Positions 3,384-37,105 of a stretch of 64,000 nucleotides of DNA are shown here, piece by piece. The notes under the pieces were generated by a model. It was not told the DNA's origin. It made no database searches and saw nothing but the letters and a program-made list of their open reading frames with translations. Source of the stretch: Collinsella provencensis (GTDB lineage Bacteria > Actinomycetota > Coriobacteriia > Coriobacteriales > Coriobacteriaceae). The stretch lies in NCBI RefSeq assembly GCF_900199705.1, contig NZ_LT904908.1:467542-531541 (forward strand), in the 5' to 3' direction. A program made the translations under genes and the position numbers. Within the stretch, counting starts at the first letter, position 1, and the number at the start of each line of letters is the position of its first letter.

Positions 3384-3782
3384 ATGGGCACGGATACGAA
3401 CACCATTGAGATCAGGCAGATCCACTGCACCACCTGCCCCTCAGAGTGCCTGCTCACCGTGGAGGTGGAGCTTGACTCCATGGGCGTCGAGGTGGGCGTG
3501 CGCGAGGTGAGCGGCAATCGCTGCCCCCGGGGAGCCGCCTTTGCCCATCAGGAGATAACCCGCCCCATGCGCGTCCTCACGACAACCGTGATTTTGCACG
3601 ATGCAGATGAGCGCCTGCTGCCCGTGCGGACCGCCGAGGCAATTCCTCTCGACTTGCACGCACAAGCGATGGAGCTGCTCCAACATACCACCGTCCAAGC
3701 GCCCGTTTCCATGGGTGACGTCGTGATTTCCAATATCCTGGATACCGGGACGGATGTCGTCGCTAGCCTCAGCGTGCGCTGA
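3384..3782 (+). CDS. DUF1667 family cysteine-rich protein, partner of the GlpA/B-like oxidoreductase
   Basis: A 132-residue protein starting 5 nt after the oxidoreductase stop, so the two are almost surely co-transcribed. Cysteines at 15, 18 and 22 (HCTTCPSEC) and the later GNRCPRG motif are the hallmarks of DUF1667. Such proteins follow GlpA-like and thioredoxin-reductase-like flavoproteins in anaerobes. The cysteines could bind a metal or an Fe-S centre and serve in electron transfer; this is inferred, since no DUF1667 mechanism is firmly established. No membrane segment or signal peptide is visible. Confidence 0.85.
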   Translation: MGTDTNTIEIRQIHCTTCPSECLLTVEVELDSMGVEVGVREVSGNRCPRGAAFAHQEITRPMRVLTTTVILHDADERLLPVRTAEAIPLDLHAQAMELLQHTTVQAPVSMGDVVISNILDTGTDVVASLSVR

Positions 3783-29745: not shown

Positions 29746-30309
29746 TCACCTCGTAACTGGGGCGTCATTCTCTGGTTGCGAGGTTCTTTTTTGTCCCAAC
29801 GCCAGCCCCTCGGACGGCGTGTCTTCAGAATCGTTCGCACGCAAATAGGCCAACATGTCATCGACGTTCAACGCTGCAACGAGACTATGCTGTAAGAGTC
29901 TCAAATCACCCGTAACGAGAAAATCGGCATGTGCACGCTGCGCGGCTGCAAGTATAAGATTATCCTCGTAGTCGCTATGAATTGAACGTGTTTTGCAAGC
30001 GTGCCACACATCGGACTCATCGCTGCCAACCGCCGTGGCCAATCCATGCATATGTTCAACGCTCGCCCATGCCACAGCCTGAGCGGCAAGCGCCTCTGCA
30101 TCCGTTAATACACCGCCTGAGTCTTCCCTACAAGCCTGTTTCGCGTCAGCAGCCACGCGATAAAACACGTCTCGAGATGAATTGACGGCATACAGCAGAT
30201 CTATCCCATGAGCAGAAGCATAGTCGATGAGCTCAAAAGCTTTCACATGACCCGCTCGAGACGCAGAGTAATAATCCATCCACACATTGGTATCGAGCAA
30301 AAGCATCAT
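29746..30309 (-). CDS. PIN-domain toxin
   Basis: A 187-residue PIN ribonuclease. Acidic metal-site residues are in LLLDTNVWMDYY at the start, HSDYEDNLILAAA near 130 and DFLVTGDLRLL near 145. The C-terminal 20 residues, polar and rich in Gln/Pro, are encoded by the acetyltransferase terminator and may be dispensable. The antitoxin gene lies 20 nt upstream. It is larger than the PIN toxin at 9384 and not closely alike. Confidence 0.82.
   Translation of the reverse strand: MMLLLDTNVWMDYYSASRAGHVKAFELIDYASAHGIDLLYAVNSSRDVFYRVAADAKQACREDSGGVLTDAEALAAQAVAWASVEHMHGLATAVGSDESDVWHACKTRSIHSDYEDNLILAAAQRAHADFLVTGDLRLLQHSLVAALNVDDMLAYLRANDSEDTPSEGLALGQKRTSQPENDAPVTR
29749..29792 (+). terminator. Rho-independent terminator of the acetyltransferase gene
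   Basis: CCTCGTAAC / GTTGCGAGG (one G-T pair) is followed by TTCTTTTTT. The structure lies inside the last codons of the convergent PIN toxin gene, so one sequence serves as terminator and coding DNA. Confidence 0.8.
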
Positions 30310-30329
30310 ATAACCACCCAGACAGGCTT

Positions 30330-30707
30330 CTAGGCACCAAAACGCTCTTCAAACATGAGATAGCGCAGCTCTTCGTCGGAAATGGGATCAATTTTTGGAG
30401 GCCAAGAAAGTCCCTGTTCGCGGTAGAAATCCTCGACGATCTTCGGTCCACGGCGCGCCCACTCAATACGGCGTTGACGCTCAGCTTCCGCCTCAGCTTG
30501 CTGCGCCTCAAACTCATCGGGACGTAGCAACGCATGGATATCCGCAGGCTTATCACCCAAATCCGAAACACGCTCCCATAGAGCACGAATCGCCTCACTC
30601 GGCGTAAAGCCAGCAGCTCGCAGCGCAGCATCTCCCGCACGCTTCAACTCGCTTTCAATACGGACGTTCATCTGTGTCATAGCCGGACTTATCGTTGGGG
30701 CGGGCAT
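30330..30707 (-). CDS. RelB/DinJ-like ribbon-helix-helix antitoxin
   Basis: A 125-residue protein. MTQMNVRIESELKRAGDAAL and AAGFTPSEAIRALWERV form a typical RHH domain. The C-terminal half is rich in Glu/Gln and ends DEELRYLMFEERFGA, a motif seen at the end of RelB-like antitoxins. The ATG follows GGAGG. Like the pair near 9 kb, a RelB-type antitoxin is combined with a PIN toxin. Confidence 0.8.
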   Translation of the reverse strand: MPAPTISPAMTQMNVRIESELKRAGDAALRAAGFTPSEAIRALWERVSDLGDKPADIHALLRPDEFEAQQAEAEAERQRRIEWARRGPKIVEDFYREQGLSWPPKIDPISDEELRYLMFEERFGA

Positions 30708-30872: not shown

Positions 30873-33800
30873 CTACCTCATCACCTTGTCCATGAGCTCG
30901 TCGTACGTACTCACAAAGTCATAGCGAACGCCGTCCTCGCCGAGTTGCTCAAACAGCTTTCGTGCGCACTCAATCTTTGTCCGTTCCACTTCCTTGAGGC
31001 TGAACGAGTTGAGCGAGCCCTTGGTCTCGGCAATAAAGTAAATATGCTTCACCACACCCTCGTTGAAGGCGATTGCCCAGTCGGGTGCGTAGTCACCCAC
31101 AGGCGTGGGAATCTTGAATGAGCGCGGCAGGTGTGCAAACACGCACACTTCATCAGACTCTTCGAGCTCCTGGGCAAACTTACGCTCCGTCTCGCTGTCA
31201 AACACCGTCCAATTCTGCACGCCCCTTTTAGACGTCGGCAACGCGCGCCCCAGGCTCTCTGGCATATCCGCGGCAAAGATTTCCGCAGCATCGTACTCTC
31301 CCGCCACGCGGTTATAGCGGATATGCTCCACCACCATGCGCGCTTTTTCGTCCACAATGAGCGCCGCGACCTTGACGATGAATTCCTCGGGGTTCGTTCG
31401 GAATGCAGCAAATCGGTCCGGCGCGATCTCCGACAAAATCGCCGCTGCAGTTGCGCGCGTAATACGCGCCTTACCTGCCACTTCGCCAACCAGGTCGTAT
31501 GCAACATTTGAAATCACACCAGCATTGACCTCAAGCGTTTTACTGCTCTGGGCCGCAAAGCTATCGGCGGATTCGACTTGCTCGCGCGTCGTCTCATCAC
31601 GCTGCGCACCTTTCTTGAGACGATAACGCGGAGCGGATACCGTGAGATTCTTATTGATACTTGCCACGGCGTTGCGTCGGAGCTCGTTTGAGTCAAACTC
31701 CACCGTGTACGCATGCTTGTGATTGATGCGCGCCCACAACTCCTGGAACTCCTTTTTACGGAAGTTGTCGTTGAGGCCGTTACTTGCCACCTTGGTGCCC
31801 AAGCCGTTTGCATACATGCCCGCAAGAGCAGACGAATCCTCAATGCTGCGCACCAGACTCTCGATTTGAGCACGATATCCATCAAGGTGCTCGGGTATAT
31901 CCGAATCTCCAAGCGCCTTGAGACCCTTCTCGTTAAACTCGTCCGTAAGCTGACCTTTACGGTCAATGAGACCATTTCGAACCAACGCGTACATAATTTC
32001 GTTGGCATCTTCCTCGGTGAGCTTGTACTCCGCCACACCGTCGGACAGCACAAAGCCAGTGAAAAGCTTCTCCTCAACCTTCTTTGGGCGTTCACGCAGT
32101 TCGCTGATTGTCTCGCTTTGAAGCGACTTCACAAAGCTGTCGTAACCCTCGGAAGCGATTACAGTGAGCAGATTCACCGCATGCACACCGTCTCTGCCAA
32201 GCAACCTTTCGTCCTGGCGCGTACCGTCTTGGTCCACGCATAGACGCAAGCCGCGACCCACCTCTTGGCGCTTGGAAATATCCGAGTCGCCCGAGCTTTT
32301 GAGAGTGCAAATCTGGAACACATTGGGGTTGTCCCAGCCCTCACGCAGTGCGGAGTGGGAGAAGATAAAACGCACAGGCTCCTCAAATGAAAGCAGACGT
32401 TCCTTGTCCTTGAGAATAAGATCGTAGGCCACTACCGCATCCTCGCCCTCGGCAAACTCAGTGCCGCGCTTGAGTTTGTTGTCAATCGCGCGGCCCTTTT
32501 TGTCAATGGAGAAATAGCCCTCGTGAACCTTATGCTCAAGAGACTCGCGCAGATAGCGAAGATAGCGCGGATCACGCGCGTCATCGAGCGTGGGTTCGGC
32601 CGTGCGCGCCTCGACTGCAACCTGATATTCCTCCTCGAATATGCGTCCGTATACGCCTACGCCCTCGCTACCATCCTCGTCGTAGACGCGATATTTAGCC
32701 ACCTCGTCAATGAAGAACAAAGACAGGCACTTGATACCTTGGCGGAACAGCACCTCCTCCTTTTGCAGATGCGAGGCTATCGTCTCGCGGATTTGAATAC
32801 GACGCAGGTCCTCTTCGGAGGAGTCGTTGGCAATCTGCCCACGGTAGAGCCTCTCGTGGTTGTCAAACTCCACATAGCCCGTTTCGCCGTTCTGATCGGG
32901 CACAATACGCAGAATGCGGTACCCATGCACATACGCCTCAAGCTCATTTGACGCATAGTAAATGTTGTCGTTCTCGGAGAAGCGCCCCATGCTCTTGGTG
33001 ACCTTACCGCCTGAGAGCTGCTTTTTATACTCAATCACTGCCACAGGAGGCTTGGTGGGACTCACGCGAATGTCCTGTAGATACACATAACCATCGGTAC
33101 CGCGCATACCTATCATCTCGATGCCCTTGACCTCGATACGCTTGACCAAGCGCTCGTTATAGGCGTCGAGAGGGTCGAGCGCGAACACCGTGTTATGGCG
33201 CTCTTTATGGGTAGCGGAGTAATTGAGGCTGAACAGCGGTTTGAACTGCTGCATGGCTTTGCGCGTTGCACCCGATTTCTTGCCCATCTTCTGAGGCTCG
33301 TCGATGATGAGGATTGGATTAGTGGTGGAAAGCACGTCGATGGGACGACGGCTGCCAAAGTCGTCGCGCTCGGAGAACATGATACGCGCGGTCTTGTCAC
33401 CGCCACGCCCCTCCTTGCTTTTGGACTCATCAAAAGCATTGAAGGCTTGCATGTTAATGACCATGACGGAGATGTCCGCGCGACTGGCAAAAGAGTCGAT
33501 CTCGTTCAGGCGGCTCGAGTTGTACACAAACGACCAAAGGCGCTTGCCGTACTGCTCGTGAAAATGCTTGGCGGTAATCTCGAGGGACTTCGCAACGCCT
33601 TCGCGAATCGCCACGCTCGGAACCACGATGATGAACTTGGACCAGCCATAACGCGCATTGAGCTCAAACATCGTCTTGGTGTAGACGTAGGTCTTGCCCG
33701 TGCCCGTCTCCATTTCCACGTCGATCTCCACGGCACCAAGATCGCAATGCAAGCCAGCGGAAACGGGGATGCTGTTCTTACGCTGGGACTTCTTCACGTT

Positions 33801-34046
33801 TTCGAGCAGCTCGAGAGTGGTGAGTTGCAACGGCGCGTTGCGAAAACCCGAACCATTATCCACTACAACACCGCCGTCGGCGGCGCCCGTCAACCCAAGT
33901 GAGCTCTGCCCGCGCTTGTCCACGCGCGTTGCGCCAAGGTCGCGCACGTAGGACTGCGCGTCGATTTTTGACTGTCCGTCAAACACGTTGACCACGGCAT
34001 CCGCCGCGCGCGTCTGGTAGTCGAGAACAGAGAACTTGAATTCCAT
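30873..34046 (-). CDS. res: Type III restriction enzyme, Res subunit (helicase-nuclease)
   Basis: A 1057-residue ATP-dependent restriction subunit. The SF2 motor has Walker A METGTGKTYV near residue 115, motif II LIIDEPQKMG and motif VI QEVGRGLRL, with SHSALREGWDNPNVFQ before it. Near the C-terminus GDYAPDWAIAF followed by YFIAETKGS is the PD-(D/E)xK nuclease signature. With Mod it cuts DNA carrying two unmethylated, oppositely oriented sites. The ATG at 34044-34046 (MEFKFSVLDYQTRAAD) fits the family start; its ribosome-binding site is poor. It is separated from mod by a toxin-antitoxin pair on the other strand, so it needs its own promoter or read-through. Confidence 0.95.
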   Translation of the reverse strand: MEFKFSVLDYQTRAADAVVNVFDGQSKIDAQSYVRDLGATRVDKRGQSSLGLTGAADGGVVVDNGSGFRNAPLQLTTLELLENVKKSQRKNSIPVSAGLHCDLGAVEIDVEMETGTGKTYVYTKTMFELNARYGWSKFIIVVPSVAIREGVAKSLEITAKHFHEQYGKRLWSFVYNSSRLNEIDSFASRADISVMVINMQAFNAFDESKSKEGRGGDKTARIMFSERDDFGSRRPIDVLSTTNPILIIDEPQKMGKKSGATRKAMQQFKPLFSLNYSATHKERHNTVFALDPLDAYNERLVKRIEVKGIEMIGMRGTDGYVYLQDIRVSPTKPPVAVIEYKKQLSGGKVTKSMGRFSENDNIYYASNELEAYVHGYRILRIVPDQNGETGYVEFDNHERLYRGQIANDSSEEDLRRIQIRETIASHLQKEEVLFRQGIKCLSLFFIDEVAKYRVYDEDGSEGVGVYGRIFEEEYQVAVEARTAEPTLDDARDPRYLRYLRESLEHKVHEGYFSIDKKGRAIDNKLKRGTEFAEGEDAVVAYDLILKDKERLLSFEEPVRFIFSHSALREGWDNPNVFQICTLKSSGDSDISKRQEVGRGLRLCVDQDGTRQDERLLGRDGVHAVNLLTVIASEGYDSFVKSLQSETISELRERPKKVEEKLFTGFVLSDGVAEYKLTEEDANEIMYALVRNGLIDRKGQLTDEFNEKGLKALGDSDIPEHLDGYRAQIESLVRSIEDSSALAGMYANGLGTKVASNGLNDNFRKKEFQELWARINHKHAYTVEFDSNELRRNAVASINKNLTVSAPRYRLKKGAQRDETTREQVESADSFAAQSSKTLEVNAGVISNVAYDLVGEVAGKARITRATAAAILSEIAPDRFAAFRTNPEEFIVKVAALIVDEKARMVVEHIRYNRVAGEYDAAEIFAADMPESLGRALPTSKRGVQNWTVFDSETERKFAQELEESDEVCVFAHLPRSFKIPTPVGDYAPDWAIAFNEGVVKHIYFIAETKGSLNSFSLKEVERTKIECARKLFEQLGEDGVRYDFVSTYDELMDKVMR

Positions 34047-34076
34047 AATCACGCCAATCAACATACAGGATGGTTT

Positions 34077-34096
34077 TATAATGGGATTACTATCCC
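34077..34096 (+). promoter_or_regulatory. Promoter/operator of the embedded toxin-antitoxin pair
   Basis: A TATAAT -10 box (34077-34082) is followed by an inverted repeat GGGAT-tact-ATCCC (34083-34096). The opposite strand reads TATAAA here, so the 67-bp gap could hold overlapping promoters for res and the antitoxin. Confidence 0.5.
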
Positions 34097-34113
34097 TTGA
34101 AAAGGAGTCTTGT

Positions 34114-34416
34114 ATGGTTATCGCACCAATCAAAGAACTCAAAGACGGAGCAGCGATTTCCGCCAAATGCCACGAACTCAACGAGCCCATCCACATCACT
34201 AAAAACGGATACGGCGACATGGTCATCATGAGCACCGAGGTATTCGAGCGCTACGACCGAATCATGCAGCGCGTGCTTGAGCGCGAACTAAGACATCAGC
34301 AGGAGCTCGAAGAAATCGTCGAGGATTTCCGCGCTGGTATGGCAGATTACAAAGCGGGAAATACTCGCGATGGCTTTGAGGTGCTGTCCGAGCTGAGGGC
34401 ACAGTATGACCTATAG
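34114..34416 (+). CDS. Phd/YefM-type antitoxin
   Basis: A 100-residue protein. The N-terminal half, APIKELKDGAAISAKCHEL followed by PIHITKNGYGDMVIMS, is the Phd/YefM fold. The C-terminal half is helical and charged (RELRHQQELEEIVEDFR). The ATG at 34114 has AAAGGAG 6 nt upstream; an earlier in-frame ATG at 34036 would begin inside res. It overlaps the toxin gene by 11 nt. It lies between mod and res but on the opposite strand. Confidence 0.85.
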   Translation: MVIAPIKELKDGAAISAKCHELNEPIHITKNGYGDMVIMSTEVFERYDRIMQRVLERELRHQQELEEIVEDFRAGMADYKAGNTRDGFEVLSELRAQYDL

Positions 34417-34738
34417 AATTCGCGTGGTCCCTGCCTTGACAGAACGCCTGGGTGAAATTACCACTTACATCAGGGATGACCTCGGTCTCCCAAAATCCGC
34501 CTCCATGTTGTACGACGATCTCGAGGCTAAGTTTGCAGTCATAGAGGAGTTCCCCCGCGCTTACATGGTTGACAAAGATGCGAGCAGGGCCATCGGTGAG
34601 GAGATCCGCGGTGTCAGCATTCGCTCGTTCAAACTTCTGTACTGGATTGACGATGCTGAGCAGACTGTCCTCGCATTCGCCATTCTGTTCCGCGGCGAGG
34701 ATCCAAAGGCGCTGAGCAAAAACACATTCTTGCTGTAG
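34406..34738 (+). CDS. RelE/ParE-superfamily toxin
   Basis: A 110-residue protein of the RelE/ParE fold: YRIRVVPALTERLGEITTYI at the start, then the helix KSASMLYDDLEAKFAVIEEF, and the strands RSFKLLYWIDDAEQTVLAFAILFRG in the C-terminal half. Relatives inhibit either mRNA translation or gyrase; sequence alone does not tell which. It is coupled to the Phd-type antitoxin and ends 7 nt from the convergent mod stop. No terminator is seen between them. Confidence 0.82.
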   Translation: MTYRIRVVPALTERLGEITTYIRDDLGLPKSASMLYDDLEAKFAVIEEFPRAYMVDKDASRAIGEEIRGVSIRSFKLLYWIDDAEQTVLAFAILFRGEDPKALSKNTFLL

Positions 34739-34745
34739 CACGTCC

Positions 34746-36797
34746 CTACACCACCCTCGTCTGGGTGGCGGGGCTTATGGTCTTGAAGATTTCCTCAAAG
34801 TTGGCAAGAGCGTCGTCGCCGATGAAGGACGCGTCGCGCAGTACGGCACGAAGCGGCTCGCGCTCGGCCATGGCGCGGATGACATCCTCGGGCACCTCGC
34901 GATCAAAGCACGCCAGTAGCGTGTCATCGTCCACGGAATAGACCGTTTTGCCGCAAATATCGAGCTTGTCAATGCGGGCGGTATAAGGAATTACGAACTG
35001 CGGGAACAGCTGAAAGAGGATGTCCTCGGGAGTACGATCGGGCTTGAGGTTGTCTGCCAAACCGGAAAGCTGATCTTGTTGAATTACATCAGGAGTACGC
35101 TTGACGTCCTCGAAGTTGGATGAGTCGATCTTGAGCACACGGAAACCGATGTCGGGAACCTTCTTTGGCTCCTCGCCAAGCTTCAGCTGGGCGTTTGCCT
35201 CCTCGACCTCGGCCGCAATCTTAGCACCCGCACGGCGGATGCGCTCCTTGCCGATTTCGCAGAGATTGCCGAATTGCCCAGATACCTTTTCTGGAATCTG
35301 AACAAGAACAAACTGCCGCAAGCCGCCATCTTCGGAGTTTTTCTCCATAACACCCTCGGCCATGCTGGCAGAACCCGAGAAGAAGTCCAAAACAATACAG
35401 TTTGCATCCGTTGCAATATCCAAGATGCGTTTCATGAGACGAACTGGCTTTGGGGTATCAAAAGGCGCCACATCATCAAACAACAGTTTGAGATGTTTCT
35501 TCGCCTCATCGGTATGCCCAACTTCAGAATACGGCCATAGGTTGGTTGGCATTTTGCCGCCCATTGTATCCAGATATCGCTTTAAGCGCATTCCCCCTTT
35601 ACCGCCGCCAGTAAAATAAAGTCGAGGCCAATTTCCCTCTTCATATCTTTTCTGGGCTGCAGCGAAAGTCTCTTCAGTAGGATTCTTCAGCATGATTGCG
35701 TCAACATCTTTGCGCACATCCTCTACAGCGACACCGCATATTTCCGCTCGCTTTTCCTCATCATGAATGTTGCGGAATTCATATTCAGCCCACTCATTCA
35801 TTATTTCGAGCATGCTGTACCCGCCGAACGGTCGGCACCGACCGTTCGGCGGGTACAGCAGCTCTCCAGTGATGGGATGCTGAATTGCATAAACCATACC
35901 CTGATGATTTGCCGCACCTGGAGCTGCAGCATCGCCAGAAGACCACGGGCGAGGGTCTCCGTCAGGCGAAGCATAGCGATCATCCATGTCAGCAGTCCGC
36001 TCAAGACGACCCGGAATCCACATGCCCTGCTTCGAATACACCAGAATATGCTCGATTTCTGCAGGAATCCCTTTCGAGTCATTCCTCGGCGAATACGTCT
36101 TCTGCCAAGCGATATCCGCCACAAAACAATTCACACCAAAGATTTCATCGGACAGCAAGCGCAGATTTCTTGACTCATGATCATCGATGGAAATAAAAAT
36201 GGCACCATCATCGCTCAGCAAATCTTTAGCGAGAAGCAGGCGCGGATACATCATTGAACACCAGTCGGAGTGGAAACGCCCTTTACTCGTACGGTTCTCC
36301 TCAAACCCATCGAGAATGTTGCCCCTTTCGTCAAAGGCCCCATTCTCGACACGCTCTTCCTCCGCCGTGCAAGCAAAGCTGTCGTTGTAGACGAATTCAT
36401 GACCCGTGTTGTACGGCGGGTCGATGTAGATCATCTTGATTTTGCCGGCATAGGTCTCGCGCAGAATCTTGAGCGCATCAAGGTTATCGCCCTCAATGTA
36501 GAGGTTCTCCGTAGTGTCCCAGTTGACACTCTCCTCGGGTGCCGGGCGCATGGTCTTTCCGATAGGGCGAATCGCCTCTGCACGAGCCTTCTGTTTGCCA
36601 GGCCAAGTGAACTGATAGCGCTCGCGTTTGTCCTCCGCAATATCACCCACATGGGCTTTGAGTGCCTCTACGTCGATGCTATGGCAAACGTTGCCGTCCT
36701 TATCCAACACCTCGGTCACAATATCAGGAAACAGCTCTGCAAGTTTAGCAGCGTTCTCACTGGCGATGTCCGCCGTTGCAAGGTCGACCTTTTCCAT
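34746..36797 (-). CDS. mod: Type III restriction-modification, Mod subunit (N6-adenine methyltransferase)
   Basis: A 683-residue β-class amino-methyltransferase. The catalytic motif IV is DPPYNTGHEF near residue 125, and motif I, LDFFSGSASMAEG, comes later at about 470, the type III order. The middle (about 230-420) is the target-recognition region. It methylates one strand of the site and directs Res. Odd: a perfect 23-bp inverted repeat lies in the coding region at YPPNGRCRPFGGYS. GAAGGGGAG precedes the ATG. A short, frameshifted ORF ends 3 nt upstream, so translation may be coupled. Confidence 0.95.
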   Translation of the reverse strand: MEKVDLATADIASENAAKLAELFPDIVTEVLDKDGNVCHSIDVEALKAHVGDIAEDKRERYQFTWPGKQKARAEAIRPIGKTMRPAPEESVNWDTTENLYIEGDNLDALKILRETYAGKIKMIYIDPPYNTGHEFVYNDSFACTAEEERVENGAFDERGNILDGFEENRTSKGRFHSDWCSMMYPRLLLAKDLLSDDGAIFISIDDHESRNLRLLSDEIFGVNCFVADIAWQKTYSPRNDSKGIPAEIEHILVYSKQGMWIPGRLERTADMDDRYASPDGDPRPWSSGDAAAPGAANHQGMVYAIQHPITGELLYPPNGRCRPFGGYSMLEIMNEWAEYEFRNIHDEEKRAEICGVAVEDVRKDVDAIMLKNPTEETFAAAQKRYEEGNWPRLYFTGGGKGGMRLKRYLDTMGGKMPTNLWPYSEVGHTDEAKKHLKLLFDDVAPFDTPKPVRLMKRILDIATDANCIVLDFFSGSASMAEGVMEKNSEDGGLRQFVLVQIPEKVSGQFGNLCEIGKERIRRAGAKIAAEVEEANAQLKLGEEPKKVPDIGFRVLKIDSSNFEDVKRTPDVIQQDQLSGLADNLKPDRTPEDILFQLFPQFVIPYTARIDKLDICGKTVYSVDDDTLLACFDREVPEDVIRAMAEREPLRAVLRDASFIGDDALANFEEIFKTISPATQTRVV
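35813..35860. repeat. Perfect 23-bp inverted repeat inside mod
   Basis: Arms 35813-35835 and 35838-35860 are exact reverse complements around a 2-bp centre. The arms encode LYPPNGR and RPFGGYS. In many Mod proteins as I recall them the GRC is followed by a tryptophan and a different sequence, so the right arm may be a templated copy of the left. Confidence 0.9.
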
Positions 36798-36800
36798 GGC

Positions 36801-36975
36801 CTACTCCCCTTCCAAAAAGGAGAGTCCGACCTCGATACGCTTGGAGGGCTGAACCTCCTTCACGTAGCTCCATTTGAGGCTGACGATCAGCGCCTTCAGC
36901 GTGGTAGCACCATCTACTTGGGAGAGAACCTCAGTTTTGAGCGCCCCCCCCGAAACGAATTTCGGGGTTCAGCAT
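36801..36975 (-). pseudogene. Small ORF upstream of mod, out of frame at a G8 tract (possible phase-variable leader)
   Basis: An ATG at 36973-36975 has AGGAG 7 nt upstream, an excellent start. The frame begins MLNPEIRF, then hits a G8 tract and stops after 14 codons (TGA, 36931-36933). If one G were missing, it would run to 57 residues, continuing ALKTEVLSQVDGATT and ending EVGLSFLEGE at a TAG (36801-36803), 3 nt before the mod start. The restored peptide has clear codon structure over about 45 codons, so it is or was translated. No family is recognised. It may be a leader coupling translation to mod. Confidence 0.7.
36944..36951 (-). repeat. Homopolymer G8 tract
   Basis: Eight consecutive G residues on the coding strand, near the start of the upstream small ORF. 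Length change of one base switches the frame. Confidence 0.9.
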
Positions 36976-37105
36976 GAATCGCTCCTCAAACGCATTTCAT
37001 AGACGCATTTATTGTACAGTCACTCACCGCAGGATTGGCAAATTGCTCCCAAGATACACGCGCTCCGACAAATCCCCTCTCTCGGAGAGGTCACATGCAA
37101 AACCG

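Follow-up and report, generated by a model that had tools for sequence, protein, structure and literature searches.

Our preferred reading, held with moderate confidence, is that a G8 tract in a short leader ORF directly upstream of the type III methyltransferase gene mod is a slipped-strand phase-variation site, which switches mod expression through the leader ORF. Coordinates are positions in the window, the whole 64-kb stretch of DNA that was analyzed. The leader, the tract, mod, and res lie on its minus strand, with the following features.

36982 to 36987, minus strand: Shine-Dalgarno sequence GAGGAG of the leader ORF (read from the sequence; same position in 'Collinsella phocaeensis')
36931 to 36975, minus strand: leader ORF as assembled with G8, 14 codons plus stop (sequence, frame count)
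36944 to 36951, minus strand: G8 tract, putative slippage site (sequence)
36801 to 36975, minus strand: 57-codon frame obtained with G7 (58 codons with G10), stop 3 nt 5' of the mod ATG (frame count)
36801 to 36900, minus strand: decayed remnant of a DUF4391 gene, 3' part (KEVQPSKR...LEGE), which compared with Slackia has lost 27 nt in frame (alignment)
36944 to 36975, minus strand: start-hairpin-polyG element ATGCTGAACCCCGAA-N6-TTC-G8, 32 nt (common to 'C. phocaeensis', where the tract is G9)
36948 to 36967, minus strand: perfect hairpin CCCCGAAA-TTCG-TTTCGGGG, its 3' arm being the tract's first four G (sequence; stem kept in 'C. phocaeensis', loop different)
36803 to 36825, minus strand: predicted 10-bp hairpin over the mod Shine-Dalgarno sequence GGGGAG, 36804 to 36809 (structure prediction)
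34746 to 36797, minus strand: mod, type III N6-adenine methyltransferase, 683 aa with DPPY motif, apparently intact (domain search)
30873 to 34235, minus strand: res, type III restriction subunit with helicase and endonuclease domains (domain search)

From the leader ATG (36975 to 36973), the tract is reached after 24 nt. The preliminary description of this DNA had given the tract's site and length, the GAGGAG and ATG before it, and the premature stop behind it, and all of these match the sequence. It had also stated that one G fewer yields a 57-residue frame that stops 3 nt short of the mod ATG, and our frame count agrees. The tract is a simple repeat in which unit changes shift the frame: the open frame has 19 aa with G6, 57 with G7, 14 with G8, 20 with G9, and 58 with G10. 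The distance from the leader stop to the mod ATG is 3 nt with G7 or G10, 133 nt with G8, 116 nt with G9, and within 116 to 133 nt with G6. One length class in three, n = 1 (mod 3), connects the leader to mod, and the assembled G8 is out of frame. Only in the G7 and G10 frames does the first stop fall within ~10 nt of the second start, as in a coupled gene pair.

The G8 is the single G/C run of at least 8 nt in the window. Since 0.27 such runs are expected per 64 kb (order-3 Markov model) and the whole genome has nine per 1.74 Mb, the tract by itself is just mildly unusual. Its place is more than mildly unusual. For a homopolymer switch, eight G are few, and this counts against phase variation. 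Poly-G as a genome-wide repeat was rejected: the other runs lie dispersed, in some cases close to terminators or within intact frames. No consensus promoter was found.

The restored 57-residue frame (P0001) exists as described, but it is not an independent small gene, since its 3' part is a DUF4391 remnant. Only its final ~30 residues align to a Slackia DUF4391 protein (pairwise E 3e-7), and the remnant can be aligned to Slackia as DNA, with a single 27-nt in-frame deletion. The database search proposed for the restored protein returned no Pfam family, the DUF4391 profile (PF14335) included, and, across 298 further genomes of the order, no relative of P0001 as a unit; a new small protein was rejected on these grounds. 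The tail is not maintained as a protein, because its changes relative to Slackia (L038) show no codon-position bias (10/10/13 by codon position, versus 6/1/25 over codons 1 to 60 of mod).

In Slackia piriformis and other Coriobacteriia, with mod identities of 52 to 78%, mod is preceded by a gene of ~204 aa that encodes DUF4391 (PF14335, E 2.4e-31). In Slackia a helicase, of which the C-terminal part was seen, precedes DUF4391, giving the order helicase-DUF4391-mod-res. The DUF4391 stop of the relatives lies 0 to 5 nt from the mod ATG, and the final codons contain the Shine-Dalgarno sequence of mod. The window shares with this operon (Slackia L038, L048, L013) the mod and res homologues and a DUF4391 3' end that abuts mod. 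It differs in that the helicase is absent and DUF4391 is reduced to its last ~35 codons, whereas the relatives have no tract. Upstream of mod in the window are an MFS transporter gene and mscL. A search of the rest of the genome for a full DUF4391 gene, with a weak control (itself without a match), gave no hit, and the leader-tail arrangement was present in one genome only.

Start and tract recur together in 'C. phocaeensis' (L039, an assembly identical with G206 from the genus of the window). Of 67 family genomes, 2 have the 15-mer start, each time at mod, and the generic form of the element, ATGCTGAACCCCGAA-N6-TTC-Gn, has L039 as its one other carrier among the 67. There, mod occupies the equivalent place, divergent from mscL, and is preceded by ATGCTGAACCCCGAAGAGAATTTC-G9; the window counterpart is ATGCTGAACCCCGAAATTCGTTTC-G8. 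Apart from the extra G, all positions outside the 6-nt spacer (26/26) are identical. The DNA 3' of the tract differs, and the 90 nt upstream give no alignment above chance (53 of 500 shuffles were as good), which argues that the element itself is conserved. A hairpin composed of its constant parts, CCCCGAA(A/G)...TTTCGGGG, occurs once in the genome and is thus no genome-wide repeat; three other genomes have matches to the pattern, at unrelated sites. A promoter common to both loci was rejected, since the DNA upstream of the Shine-Dalgarno sequence did not align significantly and no consensus promoter was seen. Likewise rejected was a mobile-element origin: the mod locus had no near plasmid match and the leader pattern no IMG/VR match.

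In L039, the tract runs straight into mod, with no other start. A tract of n = 1 (mod 3), the same class as in the window, would give MLNPEENFGG... fused to LEKVDLRTADI; with the assembled n = 9, the ATG is out of frame with mod. A GTG farther upstream also opens the mod frame, without a visible Shine-Dalgarno sequence. The start of the window's mod matches that of Slackia at 95% over 141 aa, versus 91% for L039. Because it is nearer to the former, an exchange of mod together with a piece of the DUF4391 tail is possible.

We surveyed 79 relatives for G/C runs of at least 8 nt in the start zone of mod (-60 to +30 of its start) and counted 3 runs versus 0.05 expected, an approximate figure, since the expectation comes from other DNA of the same loci (background of 4 runs), the cutoff was picked post hoc, and the loci are partly nonindependent. 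In L022 (Bifidobacterium rousetti) the order is ATG, 10 nt, C10; in L047 (Bifidobacterium ramosum) an ATG is followed by C8; the third 5' tract is the G9 of L039. In all three, the nearby ATG and mod are in different frames. Furthermore, a G8 inside mod of L017 (3474 to 3481) and a G10 inside the second mod copy of L047 (6548 to 6557) lie exactly at frame breaks and are likely internal phase-variation sites; each of the two mod copies of L047 has an out-of-frame tract. The mods nearest to that of the window retain an intact DUF4391 gene 0 to 5 nt away and have no tract. The tracts at mod starts or internal frame breaks in L022, L047, L039, and L017 thus suggest that poly-G/C slippage points arose repeatedly in this mod family, mostly extending mod itself.

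The survey also yielded sites of other kinds. In L030, a G9 (2494 to 2502) ends a DUF4391-like frame with the next gene adjoining, and other tract lengths would fuse or separate the frames. In L019, a short ORF that has a Shine-Dalgarno sequence contains a G10 (2090 to 2099) and precedes a truncated helicase gene, DUF4391, and mod; the tract was rejected as a switch, since at no length does it join this ORF to a longer frame. In L018 (B. catenulatum subsp. kashiwanohense), mod has a frame break at 3546 without a G/C run of at least 7 nt.

Taken together, the enrichment of tracts (3 versus 0.05), the out-of-frame tracts at mod, and the element common to L039 make phase variation of mod likely on comparative grounds. 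The proposal of phase variation in the preliminary description finds good comparative support in the G9 element joined to mod in L039 and in poly-C/G at other mod starts and frame breaks, and its interpretation as a whole is partly supported. It had also held that the tracts of known type III mods usually sit inside mod, and the described cases, with the tract within the mod ORF, agree (PMC8125046). The window resembles these in that mod adjoins res and a repeat tract near the 5' end is predicted to switch Mod by frameshift. It differs in that the tract is in a separate leader ORF ending before mod (stop 3 nt 5' of the mod ATG), while L039, L022, and L047 have it in the mod ORF.

The window encodes a type III mod together with its res, as judged from PF01555 in mod and the ResIII and RE_endonuc domains in res. 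Both genes look intact, and the true res start is probably near 34046. Between them, on the opposite strand, is a Phd/YefM-ParE-like pair (34036 to 34738, plus strand). The mod-res gap contains a different opposite-strand pair in L039 (DUF2442/DUF4160-like by eye), a lone similar ORF in L048, and a same-strand ORF of 286 aa in L038, and it is empty in L013, so that small modules seem to use the junction as a slot. Immediately after res comes a second toxin-antitoxin pair (RelB-like plus PIN domain; 29746 to 30707, minus strand).

How might a tract outside mod switch it? In the ancestor, the DUF4391 frame would have reached mod and borne its Shine-Dalgarno sequence, so that mod translation was probably coupled. 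Start and tract would be a separate element that took the place of the upstream helicase and DUF4391 in this genus. An upstream deletion would have set this element before a DUF4391 tail already coupled to mod, leaving the last ~35 codons between tract and mod in the window; in L039 the join would lie inside mod. We infer that tract length changes by slippage in the population. With G7 or G10, ribosomes on the leader would cross the tail, melt the hairpin over the mod Shine-Dalgarno sequence, and reinitiate (mod ON). With G8 or G9, they would stop 116 to 133 nt upstream and the Shine-Dalgarno sequence would stay covered (mod OFF or reduced); untranslated RNA may add polarity in this state. Because the DUF4391 tail carries the Shine-Dalgarno sequence of mod, it is plausible, as the preliminary description suggested, that the position in a leader ORF works by such translational coupling. 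The OFF state is perhaps only partial, because overall the hairpin is predicted to be no stabler than shuffled sequence (z -0.6) and mod could be translated without coupling from an ATG and GGGGAG of its own.

The same ATG and GGGGAG would also serve if the leader were dead, a deletion scar consisting of an old start and the decaying DUF4391 end, with mod made from its own Shine-Dalgarno sequence at any tract length and slippage without effect. In line with this, the tail shows no amino-acid constraint, the arrangement was seen once, and the full DUF4391 is missing from its usual place, and the genome search for it (with the weak control mentioned) gave no match. However, conservation in L039 extends to the start, hairpin stem, and tract but not to the flanks. 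Moreover, the frame to mod is stop-free with just an in-frame 27-nt deletion, a weak argument, as by our own estimate the chance of this is ~1/10 under neutrality. We consider a dead leader rather unlikely.

Conservation of a hairpin that includes the tract could alternatively reflect a real switch or regulator that acts on RNA and needs no replication slippage, either as a small-RNA site or through ribosomal or transcriptional slippage with constant partial read-through. There is precedent for the former in Helicobacter pylori, where a variable G-repeat in the tlpB leader is the target of the small RNA RepG (PMC8295292). The likeness is a variable-type G-repeat in an mRNA leader, and the difference is that RepG acts on the leader RNA with no reading frame involved. 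This explanation seems improbable to us: the two species have tracts of different length, both out of frame, and four other sites in the family have poly-G/C at plain frame breaks, as is typical of DNA slippage. Least probable is a base-calling error hiding an intact short leader with a tract fixed at G7 or another length, because, unreliable as assembled homopolymer lengths are (as stated for G-tracts; PMC9187656), out-of-frame tracts occur at the same gene start in independent assemblies of three other genomes, and G7, if real, would mean the ON state and would not contradict switching.

Phase-variable switching through the leader ORF also has a partial parallel in Actinomycetota. In the sortase-pilus switch of B. 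breve (bbr_0113, bbr_1889), a tract of ~G10 lies between a short 5' ORF and the remainder, slippage joins the frames, and the OFF state exerts polarity on downstream genes (PMC9187656). Common to both is a G-tract between a short 5' ORF and the following frame. The B. breve ORFs, however, are halves of one protein, whereas in the window the second ORF is a relic, and mod starts at an ATG of its own. The preliminary description took the arrangement to be undescribed. There are earlier examples of phase-variable mod genes as well as of G-tracts that switch between two ORFs, and what holds of this claim concerns the combination: a limited literature search found no case of a tract that lies outside mod, in a coupled leader ORF.

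More tentatively, the strong Shine-Dalgarno sequence, the ATG, and the hairpin whose 3' arm starts the G tract may form a cassette that is a transferable unit. Placed in frame, or before a retained coupling tail as here, it could let leader slippage tune an intact methylase by reinitiation; we regard this as a possibility, and a doubtful one.

If the preferred reading is true, the window and 'C. phocaeensis' would be a natural pair of loci, coupled in the one and fused in the other, that shows how a switch is acquired upon deletion of an upstream gene. Coriobacteriia would then have a phase-variable type III system whose OFF states are partial instead of all-or-none, and screens for phase-variable methylases that are confined to mod would overlook switches in coupled leader ORFs.
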